The notes under the pieces: generated by a model
Seen by the model: the letters and a program-made list of their open reading frames with translations, nothing else
Databases searched by the model: none
Told to the model about the DNA's origin: nothing
Made by a program: the position numbers and the translations under genes
Assembly: GCA_012522475.1 (NCBI GenBank)
Contig: JAAYKH010000031.1
Span: forward strand, 1-64,000
Length of the DNA stretch: 64,000 nucleotides
Reading direction: 5' to 3'
Origin: Chloroflexota bacterium
GTDB taxonomy: Bacteria; Chloroflexota; Anaerolineae; Anaerolineales; Anaerolineaceae
Shown here: positions 18,104-21,273 of the stretch, one piece after another
How the letters are laid out: each line of letters opens with the position of its first letter
Numbering within the stretch: the first letter of the stretch is position 1

Positions 18104-19270
18104 ATGCCAAGCTTAGAAATCTTAACCATTGGTACCGAGCTTCTTCTCGGGGAAATCACAGATACTAATTCAACGTATATCGCCAGAACAATGCGCGATC
18201 ATGGCATCGATATCTATCGGATCACAACCATCGGTGACAACCCGGTCCGCATTGCCAATACCATCAAAGAAGGTTTGCAACGGGCTGATATCATTATCAC
18301 CACCGGTGGCTTAGGCCCAACCATCGATGACCCTACCCGCCAGGCGGTGGCCGATGCCGTAGGTCGACGGCTGGTGTTCCGGGATGAACTTTGGGATCAA
18401 ATTGAGAAAAGGTATCAGGTTTACGGAAGAATTCCAACAGAAAACAACCGCCGTCAGGCTTATATTCCTGAGAATGCCATCCCTGTTCACAACCCAGTTG
18501 GTACAGCACCCTGTTTCATTGTTGAACAGAATTCCAAATACATCGTCTCATTGCCCGGCGTCCCCCAAGAGATGAAGCACCTCCTCCATCATCAAATTAT
18601 TCCCTTTTTAAAAGAGCGCTTCGATTTACAATCTCAGACGATCAAAGCTGCTGTTTTGCATGTCGCTTCTATGGGCGAATCTGTGATTGATGAGATCATC
18701 GCAGACCTGGAGGGAAAGTCCAACCCGACTGTTGGCCTCCTGGCACATCCCGGACAGGTTGATATCCGCATCACAGCGAAAGCCGGTTCAGAGCAGGAGG
18801 CCGACCAGCTCATCATCCCAATCATTGAGGAACTTTATCAACGCCTTGGTGATAATATCTACGGTCGTGATGATGAAACACTGGAAGGGGTAGTCACCGC
18901 TCTGCTGCAAGAAAAAGGTTTAAAATTACGTACCATAATTGCGGGGTTTGAACCCGGGTTCAAACTGGTAAACGATCCTTATCAATCGATGATCGAAAAC
19001 GTTAAACACGAAGAAACACAGTTAATCGATCTGGCAACGTTAACAAAAATCGTCAAAACCGAGCACCAGGCTTCACCCGGAAGCTTGGTGTTTGGTATGG
19101 CACTCAATGTATCCGATCATCTCACGCTCCATCTTGCCTTCCAGGGCATTGGAAGAACGGACAGTCTGACAAGGTATTATGGCGGACCGACTCAACATGC
19201 CCATCTTTGGAGCAAGCATGCTGGCCTGGAATGCCTGCGACGAAAGTTGATCAACTATACAGGTCATTAA
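18104..19270 (+). CDS. CinA-like protein with degenerate amidase domain
   Basis: Residues 1-270 are a typical CinA N-terminal domain of the MoaB/MogA fold: EILTIGTELLLGEITDTNS, DIIITTGGLGPTIDD, and SLPGVPQEMKHLL, followed by the KH-like segment. In CinA this part is an ADP-ribose/NMN-related pyrophosphatase. The C-terminal domain should be nicotinamide-nucleotide amidase (PncC) with an ESCTGG nucleophile loop; here that place reads RTIIAGFEPGFKLVND, without Ser, Cys or GG. The end (VFGMALN, LECLRRKLI) still aligns with the last strand and helix. The protein (388 residues) is shorter than the usual 410-430. So I expect the pyrophosphatase to be active and the amidase to be lost. Confidence 0.8.
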   Translation: MPSLEILTIGTELLLGEITDTNSTYIARTMRDHGIDIYRITTIGDNPVRIANTIKEGLQRADIIITTGGLGPTIDDPTRQAVADAVGRRLVFRDELWDQIEKRYQVYGRIPTENNRRQAYIPENAIPVHNPVGTAPCFIVEQNSKYIVSLPGVPQEMKHLLHHQIIPFLKERFDLQSQTIKAAVLHVASMGESVIDEIIADLEGKSNPTVGLLAHPGQVDIRITAKAGSEQEADQLIIPIIEELYQRLGDNIYGRDDETLEGVVTALLQEKGLKLRTIIAGFEPGFKLVNDPYQSMIENVKHEETQLIDLATLTKIVKTEHQASPGSLVFGMALNVSDHLTLHLAFQGIGRTDSLTRYYGGPTQHAHLWSKHAGLECLRRKLINYTGH

Positions 19271-19284
19271 GGAAGGAAATCAAA

Positions 19285-21273
19285 ATGAAACAAGCGAAAT
19301 GGATCTTAAAAAACGCTGTCGTCCTGACGATGGATGAGGACTTTAACCTTTACAAGCCTGGTGCAGTCGCTATTGCCGGGGACAGTATCCTTGCGGTTGG
19401 AAGTCAGGATGAAATCCTTCAAGCTTATCAGGCGGAGAATACCCTGGATTGCCAGGGGAAGATTCTCATGCCCGGTTTAATCAACGCCCATACACATGCT
19501 CCTATGACCTTGCTGCGCGGTCTGGCGGATGACCTCAGGTTAGATGTATGGTTAATGGGGTATATGATGCCCGTAGAAAGGGAGTTTGTTTCACCAGAGT
19601 TTGTGCGTCTGGGAACCCAGCTTGCCTGCGCAGAAAGTATTCGCAGTGGGGTGACCACCTTTGTAGACATGTATTATTTTGAACAAGATATTGCCGAGGC
19701 CACTGCCGAAGCAGGTTTGAGAGCAATTTGTGCACAAACAGTTTTGAAATTTCCAACGCCCGACGCATATTCATACGAGGAATCACTCGCAGCTGCTGAG
19801 GAGTTTATAAAAGCCTGGAAAGACCATCCGCTCATCATCCCCTCCGTTGCTCCGCATGCACCCTATACCTGTACGGATGAAATTTATTTTGCATGCACGC
19901 AACTGGCTCAGAAATATGACGTCCCCTTACATACTCACATTGCAGAGACCGCAATTGAGGTTGAAAACATCCGAAAAGAATATGGCATGCCGGTGGTGCC
20001 CTTTGTTCGCAAGCGGGGCCTGTTTGATGCCAAAGTGATCGCCGCACATTGTGTTCACATCGATGAGGGCGAGATGCGCACCCTCAAAAATGCTGGTGCT
20101 GGCGTAGCTCACAACCCTTCCTCCAACCTTAAGCTTGCCTCCGGATTTGCCAATGTCACCCGCATGCTTGAGCTGGGTTTGAACGTAGGCATTGGTACCG
20201 ATGGACCCGCCTCCAACAATGACCTCGATATGATTGAAGAAATCCGCCTGGCATCGATGATTGCGAAATGTGCTTCCGGGGACCCCACGGCCCTACCCGC
20301 CCGGCAAACCCTGGCCATGGCCACCAGCCTGGGTGCAAAAGCAATTCACATGGATCACTTGACCGGTTCGCTGGTGCCCGGAAAACGAGCCGACCTGATC
20401 TTGATCGGAATTGATGAGCTGCACAATTCACCCAGTTTTACTCACAACAGTGACGGCGTCTATGCCCAAATTATCTATGCTGCAAAATCAACGGATATCA
20501 GTCATGTGATGGTCAATGGTCAGTGGTTGATGCGCGACCGCAACCTGCTCACCCTGGACGAGCGCCAATTGATCCAGGATGCACAAGCCTACGCAAAGAA
20601 AATTGACGCCTTTCTTATTAAACGTGAACGCTCAGTATTGTCAAAGCTCATCGCAATTGGCGAAACCACGGAAGAAGAAAGCTTTGAAGTTCAGTCAAAG
20701 ATTCGTATCAACGATCCAGAGACCATCATCAACGCCCTCGCAAAAGAAGCGATCAAAATTGAATATACTCGCCATTACCATGAGTATGACACTTATTTCT
20801 TCTTCGAAGATGAAAGCGAAGGCCGTTTGCGCTATCGTGAGGACGAATTTATCAACGAAAAGGGTGAGGTCACCAACGTAAGAGGCCGTCTCACGGTGGT
20901 TGGCGCCACTTCTGAAGACACTTTTGAGCATGATGTCATGTTGTCGCGCAGTCGCTTCTTAGCTTCAGCCACACATTCGCTGAGATTCTACCGAGAATAC
21001 TTTGCCCCTTCCCGGGAAATCGATATTGAAAAAAATCGGCGGCGGTTTAAAATCCAATTTAAAGGGATCGATTTCTACATCAATATCGACACGCTGATTA
21101 ATCCCAATTTAGGCCATTTCCTTGAGGTTAAAAGTCGCACCTGGAGCAGAGAAGATGCTGTGCGGAAATCCAAAGCGATCAGGGAATTGATCGAATACTT
21201 GGGCGCCTCTTCTGAAATAGTTGAAGCACAAGACTATATCGAAATTGTCCTTGCACATGTATCGCCAGATTAA
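19285..21273 (+). CDS. Amidohydrolase (SAH/MTA deaminase-like) fused to a CYTH domain
   Basis: ATG 19285 follows GGAAGGAAA. Residues about 1-445 are a metal-dependent deaminase of the MtaD/SsnA/TrzN group: MPGLINAHTHAPMTLLRG, SVAPHAPYTCTDE, HTHIAETAIEVE, AAHCVHIDEGE and GIGTDGPASNNDLDM. These supply the His, Glu and Asp of the metal site. Residues about 475-655 form a CYTH (triphosphate tunnel) domain: an ExQxK variant of the ExExK motif (EVQSK), YDTYFFFEDESEGRLRYRE, EKNRRRFKIQFKG, INIDTL, and LGHFLEVKSR. CYTH domains bind triphosphates such as ATP or thiamine triphosphate. The combination suggests deamination of a nucleoside-like compound controlled by, or coupled to, a triphosphate. Followed 18 bases later by glgA. 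Confidence 0.82.
   Translation: MKQAKWILKNAVVLTMDEDFNLYKPGAVAIAGDSILAVGSQDEILQAYQAENTLDCQGKILMPGLINAHTHAPMTLLRGLADDLRLDVWLMGYMMPVEREFVSPEFVRLGTQLACAESIRSGVTTFVDMYYFEQDIAEATAEAGLRAICAQTVLKFPTPDAYSYEESLAAAEEFIKAWKDHPLIIPSVAPHAPYTCTDEIYFACTQLAQKYDVPLHTHIAETAIEVENIRKEYGMPVVPFVRKRGLFDAKVIAAHCVHIDEGEMRTLKNAGAGVAHNPSSNLKLASGFANVTRMLELGLNVGIGTDGPASNNDLDMIEEIRLASMIAKCASGDPTALPARQTLAMATSLGAKAIHMDHLTGSLVPGKRADLILIGIDELHNSPSFTHNSDGVYAQIIYAAKSTDISHVMVNGQWLMRDRNLLTLDERQLIQDAQAYAKKIDAFLIKRERSVLSKLIAIGETTEEESFEVQSKIRINDPETIINALAKEAIKIEYTRHYHEYDTYFFFEDESEGRLRYREDEFINEKGEVTNVRGRLTVVGATSEDTFEHDVMLSRSRFLASATHSLRFYREYFAPSREIDIEKNRRRFKIQFKGIDFYINIDTLINPNLGHFLEVKSRTWSREDAVRKSKAIRELIEYLGASSEIVEAQDYIEIVLAHVSPD

Follow-up and report, generated by a model that had tools for sequence, protein, structure and literature searches.

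A deaminase joined to a CYTH tunnel with conserved changes at both metal sites in Chloroflexota: a candidate phosphate sensor

The window, a stretch of 64,000 nucleotides from an Anaerolineaceae genome, carries on its forward strand an unbroken open reading frame at 19285-21273, which encodes 662 aa and runs from an ATG at 19285 to a TAA at 21271-21273. The frame is flanked by a cinA-like gene, whose end lies 14 bp upstream, and by glgA, which begins 18 bp downstream. The features of the locus are as follows:

18104-19270, forward strand: cinA-like gene (MoCF_biosynth and CinA_KH, Pfam), upstream neighbour lying outside the fusion
19270-19277, forward strand: Shine-Dalgarno-like AGGAAGG seen in the sequence before the ATG, overlapping the 3' end of the cinA-like gene
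19285-20610, forward strand: residues 1-442, MTA/SAH-type zinc deaminase domain (amidohydrolase superfamily, TRZ/ATZ/COG0402 group; Pfam, NCBIfam, model)
20611-20679, forward strand: residues 443-465, mostly helical linker (alignment; model helices 426-447 and 451-458)
20680-21249, forward strand: residues ~466-655, CYTH/TTM domain with an altered tunnel (homologue profiles, model, profile-profile comparison)
20686-20700, forward strand: ExQxK (E468, Q470, K472) in place of ExExK, 109/109 sequences, with Q470 at a metal-1 ligand position
20788-20796, forward strand: DxY (D502, Y504), retained, 109/109; counterpart of SaTTM D38/Y40 (residue role from PMC8233210), matched by motif since the profile alignment is gapped there
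20830-20844, forward strand: RxRxD (R516, R518, D520), phosphate-binding arginines, retained, 109/109; aligns with LRLR of ordinary CYTH proteins
21031-21045, forward strand: KxRxR (K583, R585, R587), phosphate-binding, retained, 109/109; aligns with EKYR of ordinary CYTH proteins
21124-21132, forward strand: ExK (E614, K616; EVK in the window) replacing the metal motif ExE, 109/109, with K616 at a metal-2 ligand position

The N-terminal half had been read as a complete metal-dependent deaminase with HTH, HTHIAE and TDGPASNN motifs, and this was borne out: the motifs are present, and the metal and catalytic residues H69, H71, H218, E221, H255, H276 and D306 were invariant in 78 homologues. The amidohydrolase barrel set (HxH, His, His and Asp) is complete. 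Pfam search of the 662-residue product showed an Amidohydro_1 match at residues 60-414 (250 bits, E 4.5e-74), and the closest models to this half were those of TRZ/ATZ and MTA/SAH deaminases. PRK09045 matched with E 2.7e-138, scoring 461 bits against an equivalog cut-off of 540. The AlphaFold model of the full-length fusion (pLDDT 90.7, pTM 0.89) was compared with solved structures, and it superimposed on 4dzh, 4dyk, 4f0r and 4gbd with Z 57-58 and rmsd 1.3-1.7 A. Ranked by structure, the MTA deaminases (Z 57-58) came before AtzA (Z 48) and guanine deaminase (Z 44). The ligands among the nearest solved structures were a 5'-methylthio compound, methylthio-coformycin (these two in 4f0r and 4gbd) or inosine. 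The substrate class first proposed, SAH, MTA or guanine-like compounds, was thus narrowed to the MTA/SAH type, guanine deaminases being more distant. Judged from the model, the N-domain is probably an MTA-type deaminase acting on a by-product of SAM; the substrate would most likely be 5'-methylthioadenosine, and 5'-deoxyadenosine, SAH or adenosine are possible.

The second half is harder to recognize, and profile searches detect only the front half in the window copy. The original prediction had tied its CYTH assignment to a profile hit in this region. For the C-terminal half of the window copy, Pfam returned nothing even at E<=10, so that criterion, read literally, would count against the CYTH assignment of this copy. 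Searches of PDB sequences with the C-domain, singly or as a profile, found no CYTH match, and the assignment was therefore tested through the relatives. As a result, PF01928 (CYTH) matched 16 of 33 diverse aligned homologues (best E 1.9e-7), and in four relatives, which surfaced independently in a family search, the same fused ORF scored above the Pfam curated cut-off (28.0, 26.8, 25.7 and 23.6 bits against 23.2). Profile-profile comparison of the C-domain with 27 ordinary CYTH proteins from related genomes gave E 1.1e-5 with residue-by-residue correspondence. The structure prediction pointed the same way. For the AlphaFold2 model of the C-domain, built from 81 sequences (pLDDT 85, pTM 0.81), the best matches among solved structures were PH1819 (Z 18.0, 2.4 A over 170 residues) and the triphosphate complex of SaTTM (Z 17.3, 2.1 A over 169 residues). 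On the case built from the homologues, the profile-profile comparison and the predicted fold, the C-domain is a CYTH/TTM tunnel, which upholds the proposal that the deaminase continues into a CYTH domain in a single frame.

The two halves are joined by a linker whose mean column identity (0.83) was higher than that of the deaminase (0.78) and of the CYTH domain (0.69). Such high conservation of the linker is expected if both halves communicate.

Protein searches found the fusion in 89 of 101 genomes of the family and 150 of 249 of the class, as well as in 62 of 301 genomes sampled across the phylum and in 14 of 37 sampled from the phylum to which a Riflebacteria-group genome belongs. It spans most Anaerolineae and several other Chloroflexota, and the intact frame is also present in cultured Ornatilinea, Leptolinea and Anaerolinea. 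The copy number is nearly always one, and the open frame is about 655-750 aa where the contig permits. An annotation artefact or chance fusion was rejected, as the frame is intact, at about 655-700 aa, in nearly all genomes. A candidate stand-alone C-domain (L080, 6194-6887) was also rejected because of a frameshift near the domain junction with the N-domain upstream in another frame; this frameshift is either an assembly error or real. A short copy (L081) is cut by the contig end. No relative was found in viral contigs.

In the tree of N-domains, 41 fused and 31 stand-alone copies were split by a branch with 100/100 support, which is consistent with one fusion event. Four copies of the Riflebacteria/Ozemobacter group formed one clade nested among Chloroflexota sequences and carried the whole fusion, so the gene appears to have passed from one phylum to another, into Riflebacteria, in one piece. 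Genomes that lack the fusion had no close N-domain either (best 43% identity, most <39%), and no split form was found there. In one genus (g17) the fusion was absent from all 7 of the 7 genomes sampled, which suggests a clean loss in that lineage.

The neighbouring genes were also examined. At 110 loci, cinA was near the fusion in 70 and glgA/malQ in 28-29; cinA lies upstream in most Anaerolineales, and glgA-malQ lies downstream mainly in Anaerolineaceae. No common neighbours were found beyond Anaerolineales, where the more distant loci examined differ in their flanking genes. Because no shared neighbour was found there, no function was drawn from the gene context, and the neighbourhood was dropped as a functional clue. 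In the window, the cinA-like gene contains MoCF_biosynth and KH domains and its last ~115 residues gave no Pfam CinA C-terminal match; its deamidase part may be degenerate.

We compared the tunnel residues by mapping the fusion to ordinary CYTH proteins through the profile-profile alignment and from these to SaTTM. In this mapping, E468/Q470/K472 correspond to SaTTM E5/E7/K9, R516/R518 to R56/R58, K583/R585 to K110/R112, and E614/K616 to E135/E137. EVQSK in place of ExExK, noted in the original prediction, is indeed present and is invariant as ExQxK; a second change, EVK in place of ExE, had gone unmentioned. The strand-5 lysine of the tunnel (SaTTM K69) is also lost, residue 539 being mostly I/L/V and also T/M, and R555 and R557 occupy positions that are acidic in ordinary CYTH proteins. 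Across 109 distinct sequences, E468, Q470, K472, D502, Y504, R516, R518, D520, K583, R585, R587, N600, D602, E614 and K616 were all invariant; three carboxylates, E468, D602 and E614, thus remain. The genome itself supplies a natural control, a separate ordinary CYTH protein (L201, contig C80, 6103-6540) that keeps E5, E7, E134 and E136 and against which the altered tunnel can be compared. Both ExExK and ExE are intact in L201, as in all 27 ordinary CYTH proteins aligned.

Among the 109 sequences, mean identity was 0.965 at 22 tunnel-facing positions, 0.717 at 27 outward neighbours and 0.654 over the whole CYTH domain, with the two sets of positions assigned by strand alternation and homology rather than from coordinates. 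Tunnel conservation so far above that of the outward neighbours indicates that the domain is not a decayed scaffold. The alignment argues that the tunnel change is specific, old and under selection rather than the result of decay. This bears on the idea that the C-domain is a structural or oligomerisation module, that is, a degenerate CYTH barrel retained only for stability or assembly. The changed metal ligands and the divergence outside the tunnel, to about 36% overall identity among homologues, fit such a module, and the nearest deaminase relatives function without a CYTH barrel; since selection is focused on charged residues facing the tunnel and not on the general fold, we regard it as very unlikely.

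In SaTTM, E7 and E135 are the ligands of metal 1, whereas metal 2, which is required for water activation, sits between E5 and E137 (PMC8233210). With Q at the E7 position and K at the E137 position, each metal site of the fusion has lost one ligand. By these published residue roles, ordinary two-metal triphosphate hydrolysis is disfavoured. This argues against the two-step breakdown that had been suggested, as both sites lack a ligand in every homologue; control triggered by a nucleotide or phosphate, the other function suggested at the time, fits better. The main rival explanation is a bifunctional enzyme, in which the CYTH half would still cleave a phosphoanhydride bond, be it in PPPi, PPi, polyP or a nucleotide, by a one-metal or Lys-assisted reaction, metabolically coupled to the deaminase. 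The invariance of the tunnel is of catalytic grade, E468, D602 and E614 are retained, and the plant TTM1/TTM2 group (cluster 7) is without ExExK (PMC8233210) and yet hydrolyses pyrophosphate (PMC8615392). We consider such an enzyme unlikely because both published metal sites are short of a ligand, a Lys stands in 109/109 sequences where TTMs and ThTPases have the metal-2 Glu that they need to activate water, and the strand-5 Lys is gone as well.

The altered tunnel is also more basic than that of ordinary CYTH proteins, with Q for E, K for E, and R555/R557. A tunnel of this kind might serve for delivery or tethering, holding the polyphosphate end of the substrate or polyP and so bringing the nucleotide or the enzyme to the place where the deaminase acts. 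The covalent linkage of the two domains, which every full-length homologue examined has kept, would agree with such a role. The deaminase substrate would then not be plain MTA, whereas the enzymes that the N-domain resembles were solved with small nucleosides as ligands, and we know of no triphosphorylated substrate for deaminases of this group. Tethering is quite unlikely in our judgement.

Taken as a whole, the tunnel looks like a phosphate sensor and not like a second working enzyme. We put at about an even chance the reading in which the protein is a deaminase with a built-in sensor for a phosphate ligand, whose tunnel binds (poly)phosphate without two-metal hydrolysis and modulates the deaminase; ligand binding, the lack of hydrolysis and allostery are what we infer here. 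In this mechanism, the N-domain would hydrolyse the amino group of an adenosine-type SAM by-product. The TTM barrel of the C-domain, with most of its basic side chains, would grip a tri- or polyphosphate, and K616 could pair with E468 to form a salt bridge at the usual metal-2 site. A triphosphate, polyphosphate or nucleoside polyphosphate might thereby be bound without the usual two-metal hydrolysis, and its binding would alter deaminase activity via the conserved linker helix. Several observations weigh against a sensor. Comparable invariance is typical of catalytic sites too, and with E468, D602 and E614 remaining, catalysis might proceed with one metal or with none. Plant TTM1/2 are active despite a changed motif, so an altered motif is no proof of inactivity. 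The loss of the strand-5 Lys together with R555/R557 means that the ligand preference may differ entirely, and the gene context outside Anaerolineales lends no support. A further proposal, possible although we hold it with some doubt, is that the ExQxK/ExK tunnel represents a new functional class of TTM, a metal-poor site, the same throughout Chloroflexota, which senses a tri- or polyphosphate signal or carries out a phosphate reaction of a new kind and couples it directly to the disposal of SAM by-products.

Besides the fusion, the genome encodes AdoHcyase, four proteins of the PNP family and other paralogues of the deaminase, so the idea of the fusion as the sole route for SAM by-products was rejected. 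In the region 14112-17157 of contig C49 (L002), a stand-alone deaminase paralogue with 36% identity has a PNP-family gene ~1.1 kb away on its own strand, and the two are possibly a nucleoside salvage pair.

The fusion is a conserved and horizontally portable two-domain enzyme of most Anaerolineae and other Chloroflexota, for which no described role was found. With the phosphate-gripping residues mostly kept and one ligand exchanged per metal site, it could offer a clean test for a TTM enzyme turned sensor. If the deaminase does answer to polyphosphate or nucleotides, there would be a direct link between the phosphate or energy state and the clearance of MTA-type SAM by-products; if the tunnel is a new TTM class, a single polypeptide would tie phosphate or energy status to the salvage of methionine and nucleosides. 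The architecture had been thought undescribed, and we likewise found no description of a CYTH-amidohydrolase fusion in the open literature, subscription literature not being searchable.

Compared with known systems, the N-domain is closest to the MTA/SAH deaminases of P. aeruginosa (4gbd/4dyk), C. violaceum (4f0r), Xanthomonas (4dzh) and T. maritima (TM0936), which fold alike (Z 51-58), share 33-38% identity over 402-437 residues and have the same metal and catalytic residues. These deaminases consist of one domain and measure about 410-470 aa, whereas the fusion always bears the C-terminal CYTH domain and its deaminase half scores below each curated NCBIfam equivalog cut-off shown. With SaTTM and the stand-alone CYTH triphosphatases, the C-domain shares the eight-stranded tunnel, RxR, KxR, DxY and one Glu per metal motif. 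Unlike them, it invariantly has ExQxK for ExExK and ExK for ExE, and it sits behind a deaminase. Of the features of a catalytic TTM triphosphatase, RxR and KxR are thus present (R516, R518, K583, R585), and ExExK, ExE and the strand-5 Lys are absent. The fold is also shared with the class IV adenylyl cyclases CyaB and Y. pestis AC-IV (Z about 16), in which the second Glu of ExE is lost too, being Ala (PMC8233210). AC-IV keeps ExExK, carries an HF motif and has a small amino acid where RxR has its first Arg, whereas the fusion has ExQxK, both Arg and, in the window copy, no HF; by these motif criteria (PMC8233210) an adenylyl cyclase was rejected, as Q470 and R516 are invariant. Thiamine triphosphatase was rejected for want of W/YxRxR, residue 514 being R in the window (RLRYR) and the column non-aromatic in most homologues. 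In YgiF (CYTH-CHAD) and plant TTM1/2 (kinase-TTM, the latter type likewise without ExExK), CYTH is also joined to a functional partner. The partners named for CYTH are HD hydrolase, exopolyphosphatase, nucleotidyl kinase and CHAD, with no amidohydrolase among them (PMC8233210), whereas the partner in the fusion is an amidohydrolase deaminase. Both domains are of already known kinds; their pairing and the ExQxK/ExK tunnel are new.
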